Shown one piece after another: positions 1,976-14,678 of a stretch of 30,295 nt of DNA. The notes below the pieces were generated by a model. The model was not told the DNA's origin, did not search any database, and saw nothing but the letters and a program-made list of their open reading frames with translations. Each line of letters begins with the position of its first letter. The first letter of the stretch is position 1. A program made the position numbers and the translations under genes. Source of the DNA: a virus; the IMG/VR virus record IMGVR_UViG_3300043424_000030, positions 1 to 30,295 of that record; one strand, written 5' to 3'.

Positions 1976-2562
1976 GCGCCAAACCAGTTATAAGTCTTAT
2001 AAGGCATTAAGATTGCCTTTACTCCCAAAGGTGATTCGATTGCTTGTAAATCGCTGAAATCTTCGCGACGTTCGTAAAGCGTGTTTACCATCATTTTAAC
2101 GGCAAGCTTTATGTCCTCCGGGACGGTTGTAAATCCAGCCGTATAAATCATTTTAAATTTAAACGATTGGTCGCCGCTAGTAATGGCAATCTTTGGAAAT
2201 AAACCAATGTTTACTTGGTAATTTAATGCAGTTTCTACGTTGTTTTGGTCAATTGTTGCCACTTTAGTAACGTCGTTTGCAGAGACTAAAGGGCCGTAAG
2301 GAATTTGCCAAACGTATGGAAAAGAAAACGATTCAATTGTAACTGTCTTGCGAATGATTGCCTTGCCCATGTACGACTCGCAATGTAGGCGTGCCACTTT
2401 TATTAGGCTAGTAATAAGGGTGTCCTCGGCAGCTCCGTCGATTCTTGCGTAATCTTTTGCCTCTGCCAATGTAATTGGCTCGGTAACTGGCGCAACGTCT
2501 GCAAATTGTATAGAATATCCTGTAAAGGATGAATTACTTGGCGTGTATAGTAAATTACTCAT
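1972..2562 (-). CDS. Head-tail connector (gp6-like DNA packaging protein)
   Basis: This fits the HK97 gp6 / phage_connect family: PITLAEAKDYARIDGAAEDTLITSLIKVARLHCESYMGKAII near the N-terminus, a beta segment, FKMIYTAGFTTVPEDIKLAVKMMVNTLYERRED, and a C-terminal hydrophobic tail. These proteins form a ring under the portal. I use ATG 2562, which overlaps the upstream glycosyltransferase stop by 8 nt. An in-frame TTG at 2586 would add eight residues (MTKQRNHT) and looks less likely. Confidence 0.8.
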   Translation of the reverse strand: MSNLLYTPSNSSFTGYSIQFADVAPVTEPITLAEAKDYARIDGAAEDTLITSLIKVARLHCESYMGKAIIRKTVTIESFSFPYVWQIPYGPLVSANDVTKVATIDQNNVETALNYQVNIGLFPKIAITSGDQSFKFKMIYTAGFTTVPEDIKLAVKMMVNTLYERREDFSDLQAIESPLGVKAILMPYKTYNWFGA

Positions 2563-3541
2563 TGTATGGTTTCTTTGCTTTGTCAACGATAAAATTAAAG
2601 AATCTTTCCAGTTCTTGGTCTTGGTATTTTAGGCGCTCCTCTGCAAGGTTTCGCATTATGTTTTGGTGGAAATCGTATAAAATTTCGTCGCTCATTAATT
2701 CCTCAATTTTTGCCGCCATGCCGTCTAAATCGTCACGATCAAAGTAAAGACCAGCAGCGCCAAGACATTCCTTTAAACCATCCGTAGGCGTGCAAATAAC
2801 TGGCAGCCGATTAATTGCCGCCTCCAAACCAACGCGCCCGTATGACTCATAAAATGACGGGACAAGCACAATGTTGGTTTTTCCGTAGATCAAATGCACG
2901 TCAGGAGTTTGCGCCACATACTTTAAATTTTTTAGCGTGTCGTCAATGATTTGCTCGCCGTAGCTTCCAAGCACGCCAAGAAATTTGCGCTTAGGCAATC
3001 GCTTTGCCAGTTCAATTAATATGTTTCCGCCTTTGTTCTCGTTGCAATTAATAAGGGTAATATATTGCCCATGCTTGCGGTTATACTTTACATCCTCGGG
3101 AAAAATAGGCGGCTTGCAAACAATCGAGTCGTTTGGGTAAGGCCCGTTTTGTACGTTCTTTTCGTTTGCCTTGTTGTTGTATACAACGTGAATATTTTGC
3201 GCTTTAAACCTTACGTTTCGATAATCCGAATCGTTATGGCTTAAAAAAATCAATTGCTTTTTAAATTGTCTTGCCCAATTAATTGCAACGCCTGTATTGT
3301 CTAAATGGGTAAATATTACGCTTGCATTTTGTAAGGCTAAAAAAAAGTCGTTTGAATAATAACCAGTTATAAACTTTATAAAAGCAAACTTTTCGCCGTC
3401 GGGATAAATTTGGCTTTCGGGTAAAATAACCTCAACGTTGCACCCTTTTTCGTGAAAATATTTGGCATAATGTTGGACCGTCCACTCGGCACCTGAGTTA
3501 TGCGTGCCCGCCCAGGCGTGTACAAAAAAAACGATATTCAT
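2555..3541 (-). CDS. GT4-like glycosyltransferase
   Basis: A 328-residue GT-B fold enzyme. The N-terminal Rossmann half begins MNIVFFVHAW with a glycine-containing loop and HNSGAEW. The C-terminal half has the GT4 signature VPSFYESYGRVGLEAAINRLPVI with the E-x7-E pair at E232 and E240, then CTPTDGLKECLG. It probably transfers a nucleotide-activated sugar. It is embedded between capsid and connector genes but lies downstream of a strong terminator (3592-3621), so it behaves like an inserted accessory gene. Its target, whether capsid, tail or host envelope glycan, is unknown. Confidence 0.85.
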   Translation of the reverse strand: MNIVFFVHAWAGTHNSGAEWTVQHYAKYFHEKGCNVEVILPESQIYPDGEKFAFIKFITGYYSNDFFLALQNASVIFTHLDNTGVAINWARQFKKQLIFLSHNDSDYRNVRFKAQNIHVVYNNKANEKNVQNGPYPNDSIVCKPPIFPEDVKYNRKHGQYITLINCNENKGGNILIELAKRLPKRKFLGVLGSYGEQIIDDTLKNLKYVAQTPDVHLIYGKTNIVLVPSFYESYGRVGLEAAINRLPVICTPTDGLKECLGAAGLYFDRDDLDGMAAKIEELMSDEILYDFHQNIMRNLAEERLKYQDQELERFFNFIVDKAKKPYNE

Positions 3542-5618: not shown

Positions 5619-6197
5619 TTATTGGTTAATGAAATGCATTGCTTTCGCCTCGCTATCCTCAAAGATACTTGTATAATTTTTATAAACTCCCTCAATGTCG
5701 CTTTCGCTTGGTCGCTGATAAGACAGAAAAGGTACGCAAATATATGAGTTGCCTTTAGGGTGGACCTTTGTCCTGAAATATTCGTCAATTGGAATGTCCA
5801 AATCCAATTGGGCCATTTCCTTTGCAAAGCGATAAGAGTACAAAACTCCATGCGTGGTCCACGATCCATAGGTGCGAACCAATCCCTTGCTTACGCGGTC
5901 AAGTCGTGAATCTTTTATATTGGCTCCCAACATTAACATATCCCAGTCAGCTGGCAAGTCATTGATTGCATCCTGTAAATTAGTTGCCCAACCTCGAAAA
6001 GTTGCATCGTCTTCAAAAATCAAAACATTGCCGTCGCATTCTTGAAAAATCTTTTTAAATGTTTGCCACAATCCAAACCAACCCCATTTATGTTTAATTG
6101 CGCTTACCCTTTCCAAATTAAAGTGCGGCGCCAACTCATTCATTGACTGGCGCCATTTGTCTTTGCGGTGATCTAAGTTGATAACGTAAGCAATCAT
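5619..6197 (-). CDS. Family 25-like glycosyltransferase
   Basis: A 192-residue protein with the GT25 / LPS-galactosyltransferase-type start IAYVINLDHRKDKWRQ, VSAIKH near residue 32, the metal-binding-like FEDDA (E62-D63-D64), and MLMLGANI and YGSWTTHGVLYS segments, ending SIFEDSEAKAMHF. Its ATG overlaps the MuF gene as ATGA, so it is translated with head genes. Such enzymes move sugars onto LPS or hydroxylysine-type acceptors. Here modification of the virion or of a host glycan is an inference from context. Confidence 0.8.
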   Translation of the reverse strand: MIAYVINLDHRKDKWRQSMNELAPHFNLERVSAIKHKWGWFGLWQTFKKIFQECDGNVLIFEDDATFRGWATNLQDAINDLPADWDMLMLGANIKDSRLDRVSKGLVRTYGSWTTHGVLYSYRFAKEMAQLDLDIPIDEYFRTKVHPKGNSYICVPFLSYQRPSESDIEGVYKNYTSIFEDSEAKAMHFINQ

Positions 6198-10663: not shown

Positions 10664-10915
10664 CTACATTAATATGATTGTTTGGCCAGTTGGCTCTCCA
10701 GTAAAACTGCAAAGCTTTCCGTTCCATTCAAATCGCACTTCTTTTTCTCGGCCCTGGTAAGACGCGGCCAGCGTTCTAATCTGTCTCTGTACCAATTCGA
10801 TTGTTTCAAATTTACCTTTTCCTTTGTTAGACCAAGGCGACCATTGGCCGTCCCTTAGTCGGTATCTAATTTCAAGCGAATAATCAGGCTTAGAAATCGG
10901 GTAACCTTTAGCCAT
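10664..10915 (-). CDS. Small conserved phage protein, function unknown
   Basis: An 83-residue protein overlapping the XRE regulator's end by 8 nt and the last gene of the early unit. It has a basic, beta-rich pattern: YSLEIRYRLRDGQWSPWSNKGKGKFETIELVQRQIRTLAA, then VRFEWNGKLCSFTGEPTGQTI. No catalytic motif is seen. Its coupling to the regulator gene suggests co-expression. Confidence 0.75.
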   Translation of the reverse strand: MAKGYPISKPDYSLEIRYRLRDGQWSPWSNKGKGKFETIELVQRQIRTLAASYQGREKEVRFEWNGKLCSFTGEPTGQTIILM

Positions 10916-11111
10916 CTTTTCGTCTAATTACAACCTCCAAACCAATTGCCTCGCAAATCTGTCTAAGTCTGTTTAGGCTTATAGATTCCCAACCATTTTC
11001 CACCTGATTAATTGGCGCCAAAGATAATCCGATTTTTTCGGCCAATTGCTCCTGGGTGTAACCAGCGGATTTGCGTGCTTTTCGTATAAATAATCCCTCG
11101 TAAATGCTCAT
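10908..11111 (-). CDS. XRE-family HTH regulator (Cro/CI-like, 67 aa)
   Basis: The start at ATG 11111 gives a 67-residue single-domain XRE protein: IRKARKSAGYTQEQLAEKIGLSLAPINQVENGWESISLNRLRQICEAIGLEVVIRRK. The classical HTH is TQEQLAEKIGLSLAPINQVENG. A longer reading from ATG 11249 would overlap the RusA gene and span the promoter at 11128-11155, so I reject it. Having its own promoter suggests separate control, perhaps repression of early genes or autoregulation. No paired repressor or integrase is present, so lysogeny is not implied. Confidence 0.9.
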   Translation of the reverse strand: MSIYEGLFIRKARKSAGYTQEQLAEKIGLSLAPINQVENGWESISLNRLRQICEAIGLEVVIRRKDG

Positions 11112-11127
11112 TTGCTTATTCTTTAGG

Positions 11128-11155
11128 CAAATATAAGATTCCGATAATAATACAA
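11128..11155 (-). promoter_or_regulatory. Promoter of the XRE regulator
   Basis: On the minus strand TTG (11155-11153), exactly 17 nt, then TATATTTG (11135-11128), 16 bases before the ATG at 11111. This is a perfect match to the Flavobacterium-type TTG-N17-TAnnTTTG consensus and has the same boxes and spacing as the promoter at 14509-14536. Confidence 0.75.
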
Positions 11156-11175
11156 TTAATAAAGGTGATTTTTGT

Positions 11176-11517
11176 TTAAAACGGCACCAATTTATAAATG
11201 CCCATGTGTATAAACTCCTCCCCTTTTTTAACCAGGCATTTGCGAACATTTAACTCAAATACGTTTTTGTCGTTAAAGCCGTATTTCTTTTGCGCAATGT
11301 CAATAAGCAATTTAACTGGATTGTCAAGATCGCTGGCTTTGTTGCTAAAGCCAAAGAAAAACTCAATCCTCAACATTTCTTTTGGGTCAATTTCGGCTTT
11401 TGGCAACATAAATGAAATCGTGCGCTCGTAATCCTTATATGCTTCGGTCTTAAAGCGCTTGCCTTGCCAAGCCTCGTTAACGCTTAGCGGTTTCTCATTT
11501 AACTTAAACTGAATCAT
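11176..11517 (-). CDS. RusA-like Holliday junction resolvase
   Basis: A 113-residue protein with the RusA family core: LSVNEAWQGKRFKTEAYKDYE near the N-terminus, and the acidic catalytic segment NKASDLDNPVKLLIDIAQKKYGFNDKNVFEL with D63, D65, N66, K69, D73 and D83. RusA dimers resolve four-way junctions made during phage recombination and replication, which fits the ERF annealing protein in the same operon. It overlaps the preceding small membrane protein as ATGA. Confidence 0.88.
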   Translation of the reverse strand: MIQFKLNEKPLSVNEAWQGKRFKTEAYKDYERTISFMLPKAEIDPKEMLRIEFFFGFSNKASDLDNPVKLLIDIAQKKYGFNDKNVFELNVRKCLVKKGEEFIHMGIYKLVPF

Positions 11518-13083: not shown

Positions 13084-13709
13084 ATCAGTTTATCTAAGTT
13101 TTTATTGTCCTTAATTGCCTGTAAAATAAACAATTTCCAAATCTTATTCTTTGTCTTGGCGCCAACTGTCGACTCCTCAACGTACCTAGTTGTTAACCGC
13201 AATTCCTTACGCACGTCGCTTTCTATTTCTTGCACGTTAAACTCCCAAGGTTTCAAAATTCCTTTTTCTTGAAACTTATTAAACCAGTATATCCCCCAGT
13301 CGGCAAGGTGCTTGCAATGTCCCGTTTCTTTGGCCTCCTGGTAATTGTCTCTAAATGTTTGCTTTCCAACCTCAATCCAATAGGCAATCTCTTCGTTTGT
13401 TGGCTCTTTTTCTTTGTTGTTTAAAGCTTGTACCTCCTGTACGATTTGGCTTTGGTGATGGGTGTAATATTGATTGATCCAAACGCTTACCGTCTTTTCG
13501 TTAACGTGGTAAAAATCGCCGTACTGGCCCCTCATTCCAGCGTGTAAAATATAGTTTACTCGGTCCTCAGTCATCCAACCATAAGAGCCAAATAATTTGC
13601 TAAGGCATCCAAGTAATTCGTTTGCCTCTTCTTTTTTGTATTCCTTAAATTGTTTAAGGCCACAAACAAACTCCATTTTTCGGAGGTGCGTTAAAATTAT
13701 CTCATCCAT
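13080..13709 (-). CDS. Replication-associated phage protein, function unknown
   Basis: A 209-residue mostly helical protein that overlaps the DUF6291-like gene by 8 nt. It has MEFVCGLKQFKEYKKEEANELLGCL, then MTEDRVNYILHAGMRGQYGDFYHVNEKTVSVWINQYY, a linker, and ADWGIYWFNKFQEKGILKPW. The pairing with a DUF6291/initiator-like gene recalls the initiator plus helicase-loader arrangement of other phages. The role is inferred from position only. Confidence 0.7.
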   Translation of the reverse strand: MDEIILTHLRKMEFVCGLKQFKEYKKEEANELLGCLSKLFGSYGWMTEDRVNYILHAGMRGQYGDFYHVNEKTVSVWINQYYTHHQSQIVQEVQALNNKEKEPTNEEIAYWIEVGKQTFRDNYQEAKETGHCKHLADWGIYWFNKFQEKGILKPWEFNVQEIESDVRKELRLTTRYVEESTVGAKTKNKIWKLFILQAIKDNKNLDKLI

Positions 13710-14406
13710 TTTTTAATAATTTTTGTTTTTGTAAATCCTCGTAAAGCTCGTCGAAGACGTTGTAAGTTTTTGACTTTTCCACTGGCTTGTAATTGGTTTT
13801 TAAATTATTGCCAATGTAAAGATTAAAACTATTTTCGGCCTTGGCAATTGTCATGCTTTCGCCTTCTTTTAAAACCGCCCATTTTTTAAATAAACCTTCA
13901 ATTGTTCCCGAATCTGTCGAATGTACCTCGGCCATCCTTTCAAAGTACGGACGTTTTAAAGGCTTTTCTTTTTTAAAATCATTAAAGACATCCTCCAAAG
14001 AAAAAAGAGCGCCAGCGCTTATTTGTTTATTTACATTACCATTTACATTAACATTATCATTTACATTAACATTACCATTTACATTAACAGCTAGGTTTGC
14101 TAGAGAATTTGTAGCATTGCTAGGATTTGCTAGGTCATTTCTAGCATTGCTAGCTTTTGCTAGACCTCCCTTTTTACCAGCCTCTGATCTTAAATACTTT
14201 TTTTCGTCCCAAACTTTTAAATCCCTTTTTAGCTGGGTCTTAATTGGTAGAAAAGCCAGGCGTATAAACTTGTCGTCTGTTTCGGGATTGTCGTCGTTAA
14301 CATAGCCGAAAATATGCTTAATTAACTTGCCAGCTTGCTCGTCGGTAAGCTCTTCAAAGATTTCTCTTTGGTCCGTGTACAATACAAATGATTTTTTTCC
14401 TTGCAT
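13702..14406 (-). CDS. DUF6291-like replication protein with internal repeats
   Basis: A 234-residue protein. The N-terminus KSFVLYTDQREIFEELTDEQAGKLIKHIFGYVNDDNPE matches the DUF6291 pattern, with RSEAGKKGGLAKA at about residue 75-87. A low-complexity linker follows: a ten-residue repeat (LA-K/N-A/P-SNA-R/T-N-D/S) and an alternating Asn-Val tract. The C-terminal domain (FNDFKKEKPLKRPYFERMAEVH...TIEGLFKKWAVLKEG) resembles phage replication organiser proteins. The linker DNA holds phased CTAG motifs and hexamer repeats (see 14029-14163), so the gene may contain the replication origin. A structured RNA ending in a terminator lies just upstream. Confidence 0.8.
   Translation of the reverse strand: MQGKKSFVLYTDQREIFEELTDEQAGKLIKHIFGYVNDDNPETDDKFIRLAFLPIKTQLKRDLKVWDEKKYLRSEAGKKGGLAKASNARNDLANPSNATNSLANLAVNVNGNVNVNDNVNVNGNVNKQISAGALFSLEDVFNDFKKEKPLKRPYFERMAEVHSTDSGTIEGLFKKWAVLKEGESMTIAKAENSFNLYIGNNLKTNYKPVEKSKTYNVFDELYEDLQKQKLLKNG
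14029..14163. repeat. Iteron-like CTAG array plus AT-rich hexamer tract (candidate replication origin)
   Basis: Two adjacent repeat blocks lie inside the replication gene. At 14091-14163 CTAG occurs at 14091, 14100, 14120, 14130, 14141, 14150 and 14160, with a near copy (GTAG) at 14111, so sites recur about every 10 bp on one helical face. The unit also repeats at about 30 bp. At 14029-14088 ten tandem ATTNNC hexamers (ATTTAC, ATTACC, ATTAAC, ATTATC) make an easily melted tract. Iterons beside an AT-rich element inside an initiator gene is the layout of the lambda O gene. Origin function is inferred. Confidence 0.5.
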
Positions 14407-14503
14407 AAAATAAAAAAGGCCCTATCGTGTCGGAGTCGATGGGCCTTGGGTGAATTTCACCTATGAAACATTTAAGGCTCCGACCTCTCAAATGTTCCAT
14501 TCA
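14407..14503 (-). ncRNA. Structured RNA with two hairpin loops that can kiss, ending in a terminator
   Basis: The minus-strand transcript has P1 AUGGAACAUUU (14500-14490) paired with AAAUGUUUCAU (14473-14463), 11 bp with one G-U; P2 GGUGA/UCACC (14461-14449); and P3 AAGGCCCAUCG paired with CGAUAGGGCCUU (14447-14416), 11 bp with one bulged A, followed by a U-rich run. The P1 loop contains GUCGGAG (14484-14478) and the P3 loop CUCCGAC (14435-14429), a perfect 7-bp loop-loop complement. A consensus promoter sits just upstream and the replication gene ATG (14406) just downstream. It may be a standalone sRNA or a regulated terminator controlling replication genes. Confidence 0.7.
14416..14447 (-). 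terminator. Terminator hairpin (P3) upstream of replication gene
   Basis: A GC-rich 11-bp stem with one bulge and a nine-base loop, followed on the minus strand by TTTTTTATTTT. It ends only a few bases before the start codon of the gene at 13702-14406, so expression of that gene from upstream requires read-through or antitermination. Confidence 0.8.
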
Positions 14504-14508
14504 ATACA

Positions 14509-14536
14509 CAAATATAAATCTTTTTGATTTATCCAA
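14509..14536 (-). promoter_or_regulatory. Promoter of the structured RNA
   Basis: On the minus strand TTG (14536-14534), 17 nt, TATATTTG (14516-14509). The predicted start is about 14502, at the foot of stem P1. Boxes and spacing are identical to the XRE promoter at 11128-11155. The -33 element overlaps the end of the small HTH gene. Confidence 0.7.
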
Positions 14537-14678
14537 CCAGGCAACGCTTCTTTAGTTGAAAATAAACACAACCGTATGAAAGGCCCATTTCTTGCGCAAT
14601 GACTTTAATTTGCTTTCGGTCTTGCCAAGCTTCAAAGATTAGCTCCTTTTGATATTCAGTTAAATTTCGTCCCCTCAT
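14529..14678 (-). CDS. Small HTH protein (49 aa)
   Basis: An ORF from ATG 14678 to TAA 14529, starting inside the end of the previous gene. It reads MRGRNLTEYQKELIFEAWQD, then RKQIKVIAQEMGLSYGCVYF and QLKKRCLVG. The segment IKVIAQEMGLSYGCVYFQLKK is a convincing helix-turn-helix. It is a possible DNA-binding regulator or remnant of a larger HTH protein. No partner domain is visible. Confidence 0.7.
   Translation of the reverse strand: MRGRNLTEYQKELIFEAWQDRKQIKVIAQEMGLSYGCVYFQLKKRCLVG

Follow-up and report, generated by a model that had tools for sequence, protein, structure and literature searches.

Why does a phage keep a promoter, three hairpins and a terminator directly ahead of its replication gene, with minimal intergenic space on either side of them? 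The question is raised by the uncultured virus record IMGVR_UViG_3300043424_000030, whose 30,295 bases were analyzed as a whole (the window) and whose phage gene set lies on the minus strand. From the sequence, we predict that the stretch is transcribed into an RNA of ~90 letters that has no earlier catalogue entry and is carried by a family of freshwater bacterial viruses; it would represent a new family of small phage RNAs, with a second role as the replication gene's leader. In plasmids and in phage P4, replication genes are well known to be under RNA control, via an antisense or a processed partner. What would be new here is a single sense RNA bearing both halves of a recognition code. The code occurs naturally in at least seven nearly orthogonal versions; it accompanies interchangeable replication genes, and the uncultured phages that carry it form a widespread family whose promoters are of the Bacteroidota type.

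Read 5' to 3' on the minus strand (14412-14536), the element consists of a Bacteroidota-type promoter, the hairpins P1 and P2, and the hairpin P3 with a U-run, and it occupies the intergenic stretch that separates a 49-aa ORF (14529-14678) from a DUF6291-domain gene (13702-14406). The -33 element TTG (14534-14536), which overlaps the final codons of the ORF upstream, and the -7 box TATATTTG (14509-14516), which is kept in relatives, are separated by N17; the promoter consensus of Flavobacterium is TTTG/TANNTTTG (PMC6847099). According to the spacing rule of that study, transcription is predicted to start at 14502-14504. Hairpin P1 (14465-14498), seen in the fold and in covariation, has a 10-nt loop on a stem of 12 pairs (14498-14487 with 14476-14465), two of which are G-U, and its loop presents the 7-mer GUCGGAG (14478-14484). 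Hairpin P2 (14449-14461; GGUGA/UCACC) is seen in the fold and is the least conserved helix. Hairpin P3 (14416-14447), again seen in both fold and covariation, is predicted to be the stem-loop of an intrinsic terminator; it has 11 pairs (14447-14437 with 14427-14416) and one bulged A, its loop presents the 7-mer CUCCGAC (14429-14435), the second half of a kissing pair whose two halves are both marked by covariation, and it runs into UUUUUU (14412-14417), the predicted 3' end. The predicted RNA is thus ~92 nt long and ends 6 nt ahead of the ATG of the replication gene (14406). A preliminary description of this DNA had claimed a promoter, three hairpins and a perfect 7-bp match between two loops, all of which is confirmed by the sequence and by a fold with a z-score of -5.6, equaled in stability by 0/200 shuffles; the stem lengths that it gave for P2 and P3 stand, but P1, put at 11 bp, has 12. 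The opposite strand folds less well (z -3.7). Both the minimum-energy and the centroid fold contain P1, P2 and P3 only, and neither shows a competing antiterminator fold.

The loop-loop match is conserved in relatives irrespective of how these are found. The first set of relatives was gathered by replication protein alone and hence was not selected on the RNA; the element, with perfect 7-nt complementarity of the P1 and P3 loops, is present in 45/45 of the upstream regions with enough DNA, in six loop types. A second, independent set was obtained with a DNA pattern that describes P3 but leaves the middle triplet of its loop unconstrained, and for all 58 distinct P3 hairpins retrieved (58/58) the matching 7-mer is found in the P1 loop. 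Furthermore, where loci were selected by the terminase, which is encoded ~5 kb off, the RNA is present in 27/27 of those whose contig extends to the upstream ORF. Pattern scans that required complementarity served only to add members, which brought the collection to 122 distinct contexts, with 86 distinct RNAs. Overall, there are seven loop types, and each loop change is compensated. A covariance model trained only on relatives whose loop types and P1 arms are different retrieved the window RNA as its sole match in the window (E 1.2e-11).

Since a MAFFT alignment of all 60 RNAs placed the P1 loop off by two columns, with an RNAalifold consensus that consisted of P1 only, the analysis relied on an alignment made by hand and on a subset of 18 rows. 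In 57/57 distinct hand-aligned RNAs, each of the seven kissing pairs is Watson-Crick, and at three positions both partners vary (GC/CG/AU, GC/AU and GC/UA/CG/AU). Both-side changes are also found at several positions of P1, and the P3 stem is maintained despite changes in both of its arms. Over the 18 rows, pairing is complete (100%) in the kissing helix, where three positions change on both sides, and then declines from P3 (99%) over P1 (94%) to P2, the weakest helix (69%). The whole structure scores above all shuffles and slides, and sliding of the partner cuts pairing from 93% to 36-54% (18 rows). Conserved stems with compensatory changes in P1, in P3 and in the loop-loop helix, which the preliminary description had predicted, are therefore present in full in related phages. 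The signals at either end are kept as well: the -7 box TATATTTG or a near variant (TATATTCG, TATCTTTG/A) lies 15-25 nt ahead of the P1 loop in 87/89 relatives, and a U-run of 5-7 is present in all 89 regions. Conservation lies mostly in pairing, with few invariant unpaired bases, and the conserved unpaired ligand-binding core that is a feature of riboswitches is absent.

Is the conserved entity an RNA or a piece of DNA? On the minus-strand transcript, the P1 of relatives has 40 G-U cells versus 11 A-C cells, an excess that would be expected of RNA from the minus strand. A function at the DNA level, as a replication origin, as dyads that bind a protein or as a recombination boundary between modules, would be in keeping with the repeat array in the neighboring replication gene (14020-14110) and with a site that borders exchanged modules. 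Such a function is nevertheless highly improbable, because G-U is tolerated on the transcribed strand, because promoter and U-run lie on that same strand, and because a recombination anchor would keep its DNA identical rather than maintain covarying alleles.

Two complementary loops on one phage RNA are also known from the packaging RNA of phi29. Loop complementarity is common to both; function, position and fold differ. By analogy, the loops might pair between molecules, hand in hand, to assemble dimers or rings, an arrangement that two mutually complementary loops on one RNA permit and that would be favored if the 7-bp loop-loop helix is strained within a single molecule, as it may be. We consider self-assembly of this kind very unlikely, since the site belongs to the replication module and not to the terminase region, the fold includes an intrinsic terminator, and no link to packaging was seen.

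The position of the RNA is as constant as its fold. In the window, the downstream gene (13702-14406, minus strand) encodes a protein with an N-terminal DUF6291 domain (PF19808, E 1.3e-24), relatives of which are labelled "replication protein" in Flavobacterium phages. Across the collection, the downstream gene is of the DUF6291 type (42), a Lin1244-type replication initiator (24) or a DnaD-like helicase loader (20) and, in one phage (L196), a BT4734-like/PriCT primase; in all of these four unrelated families, the ATG lies 10-17 nt past the start of the U-run. The idea of a phage RNA set before the replication gene, also put forward in the preliminary description, is therefore supported and holds across unrelated replication genes. 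Loop type does not go with any one family of downstream gene. Two phages (L059 and L101) have a nuclease-like ORF between the RNA and the replication gene; in L059 it is a 147-aa PDDEXK-like ORF (2120-2563) exactly between the RNA and the DnaD-like gene, and in L101 it has the same place. The replication proteins themselves appear chimera-like (L065, L087, L059 and window 13702-14406), with unrelated N-termini (DUF6291, Lin1244, DnaD-like) joined to common C-terminal stretches, e.g., ..FDELYEDLQKQKLLKNG.

Is the RNA, then, bound to the replication gene by function or only by synteny? The preliminary description offered a standalone small RNA and an RNA switch for read-through as alternatives. 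It has its own promoter and terminator, is present as one copy per record in 13/13 virus records of 20-36 kb, and is kept where the downstream gene has been replaced, all of which would fit a standalone small RNA that acts in trans on messages of the host or of other phages. We regard this as unlikely, because the two conserved loops, being mutually complementary, mask each other, because a fixed host target would demand conservation of a loop sequence that instead varies between phages, and because the loop 7-mer has no further occurrence within the window. All genes upstream of the RNA are co-directional and no promoter fits into the few bases that remain, so any transcript into the replication gene would have to cross P3. 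The RNA could be a gate in cis only, in which the kissing pair stabilizes the terminator hairpin or the RNA 3' end and P3 shields the replication gene against transcription from upstream, with no activity in trans and with alleles that swap neutrally. That P3 is at once the kissing partner and the final element ahead of the gene, that the co-directional upstream genes would run into it, and that there is so little room on both sides agree with this. A bare GC-rich stem of 9-11 bp followed by U6 should, however, be a good terminator by itself, with no need for a conserved 7-bp tertiary helix, and local divergence among near-identical phages peaks at the RNA (see below); we rate a gate in cis only as rather unlikely.

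The reading that we prefer combines the gate with recognition in trans, and we assign it a probability of roughly 0.43: replication would be gated by a terminator, and the loop code would enable the RNA to recognize its own leader, with feedback on replication. In this model, RNA polymerase would start at the promoter and make P1 and P2, after which the P3 terminator would stop most transcripts to give the ~90-nt RNA, and a minority would read through into the replication gene. The match of the P1 and P3 loops would be the code for self-recognition: the loops could kiss in cis, and in trans a released RNA could pair with a newly made leader at its P1 or P3 loop, thereby shifting the balance of stop and read-through or gating the read-through message. 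Replication would then be limited by the amount of RNA of the same loop type already in the cell, which would amount to copy control or would pit a phage against a co-infecting one of its own type. Points against the gate are the lack of an antiterminator fold in the folds computed, the strain that a 7-bp loop-loop helix may be under within one molecule, loop types within one sample that are no more different than expected by chance, the retention of loop type in most pairs of the swap test described below, and the two phages with an ORF between the RNA and the replication gene. If the RNA does act in trans, phage incompatibility could be tested with one short RNA, and the loop types would provide natural orthogonal attenuator parts.

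How does such a gate compare with known systems? The CI (immunity) RNA of phage P4 uses seqA/seqC, and its pairing with its own leader leads to termination before the replication genes (PMC4825925). Complementary segments in one leader, a terminator and a position ahead of replication genes are also present here. In contrast, P4 CI RNA is processed from a leader and acts in lysogeny, whereas the RNA described here has its own promoter and terminator, uses two hairpin loops and occurs in a genome with no integrase among the window genes examined, a subset of the ORFs; nor is it related to P4 CI RNA in sequence, as judged by the Rfam search. IsrK of the Salmonella prophage Gifsy-1 is a small RNA with promoter and terminator, and the short form has its own read-through leader as its target (PMC4825925). 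In the element described here, promoter and terminator are conserved, and the U-run begins 10-17 nt ahead of a gene into which transcripts may read through. IsrK turns on translation of an antirepressor operon, whereas the next gene here is for replication, the loops are self-complementary and exist in many alleles, and action in trans is hypothetical. Upstream of plasmid rep genes, the attenuators of pT181 and pMU720 depend on hairpin-loop kissing that sets the specificity of control (PMC3753616), and in RNAI of IncK plasmids one nucleotide decides compatibility (PMC10724649). In the pT181/pMU720 type, the antisense RNA comes from the opposite strand, whereas both partners are on one sense RNA here; a motif scan gave no evident opposite-strand promoter near the element, which is weak evidence of absence. 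The competing antiterminator fold of the pT181 type was not found in the minimum-energy and centroid folds. RNAII of pMV158, another small replication-control RNA, has an intrinsic-terminator hairpin whose loop is complementary to a loop of its partner, in a kissing step that is dispensable (PMC4485353), but it is antisense to the message, unlike the sense RNA here. P4 CI RNA and IsrK would thus be the nearest working parallels, in a hypothetical likeness of working for which no family membership is claimed. Unlike in P4 CI, IsrK and the plasmid systems compared, both partners are hairpin loops of one sense RNA. The statement in the preliminary description that nothing it recognized matches this layout holds at the level of sequence only, as P4 CI RNA, IsrK and the plasmid attenuators work similarly.

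If the loops are a code, how are their types distributed? On a tree of the gene ~0.8 kb downstream, loop type changed at least 46 times in 96 phages, with 58 changes expected if types were shuffled. A control revealed that the region is mosaic generally, the replication gene most of all, and the 46-change count by itself therefore proves little; a claim of runaway loop switching built on this tree was reduced to that of a local dip in identity. The dip was seen in a swap test, in which 90-nt windows across 1.8 kb were compared where both flanks were >=93% identical. Identity at the RNA window fell below 85% in 12/46 pairs (minimum 60%); at nearly all other windows this occurred in 0-9%. A second, weaker dip (8/51 pairs) lies ~190 nt upstream of the P1 loop and coincides with the junction of a 121-aa gene and the 49-aa ORF. 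Among pairs with near-identical flanks, loop type differs in 9/48 and is unchanged in 39/48. The nine differing pairs form four groups, i.e., at least four groups of clean swaps, in which the entire transcribed RNA is replaced and the promoter side and the start-codon side are 93-100% identical. The dip suggests diversifying selection or local recombination acting at the RNA, in pairs that are few and partly dependent; given the mosaicism everywhere in these phages, the swapping may also be neutral.

Full pairing between distinct loop types is impossible in 41/42 combinations. The loop pair might, then, be an allelic code for self and non-self, with phages of the same type repressing each other's replication via the trans-acting RNA and with an advantage for rare types, an extension of the gate that we consider doubtful. 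The advantage of rare types would explain long-lived alleles that are swapped whole among near-identical phages, and the code would amount to an RNA-only, sense-encoded incompatibility in phages with no sign of lysogeny. Loop diversity within samples is not in excess, the type being the same in 9/53 pairs versus 9.6 expected; strong local repulsion between phages of the same type is thereby made less likely.

Outside the family, the element was not found. Rfam 15 gave 0 matches over the whole window, the best weak one being to an irrelevant eukaryotic family (E 0.82). A pattern search of cellular genome contigs gave 7 matches, all of them chance, and the covariance model, run on 46 and on 395 genomes surrounding that of a member of the Flavobacteriales, picked up 7 weak matches, all terminator-like and with loops that do not match. 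As far as searched, the element is thus restricted to viruses, with cellular searches that sample part of the diversity. Two alleles had no DNA match in cultured phages. Relatives of the replication protein do exist in Flavobacterium phages; in phage elemoA, the one example examined, the replication gene lies 13 nt from the preceding gene, so that the RNA is absent. No description of such an element was found in the literature covered, i.e., open-licence papers. Two other roles were considered and rejected: a Shine-Dalgarno function of the loop GGAG, as not every loop type has GGAG and Bacteroidota lack SD, and a small peptide encoded in the RNA, as the reading frame is broken by indels between alleles.

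The 49-aa ORF (14529-14678, minus strand), which looks HTH-like by eye and has its stop inside the promoter, precedes nearly every copy of the RNA. Such ORFs end in LVG/LIG/YLI in 82/83 of the RNA copies for which one was called. The ORF has no match in Pfam or PHROG; its product could bind the promoter. On the other side of the RNA, at a distance of ~300 bp, tandem CATTTACATTAACATTA-type repeats (14020-14110) lie within the replication gene, where they encode a protein linker (NVNVNGNVN...), and are a candidate origin of replication. Elsewhere on the minus strand of the window, an ORF for an XRE-type HTH protein overlaps one for a RusA-like resolvase (10908-11249 and 11176-11517), and two ORFs that are glycosyltransferase-like by eye (2555-3541 and 5619-6197) lie within the cluster of structural genes.
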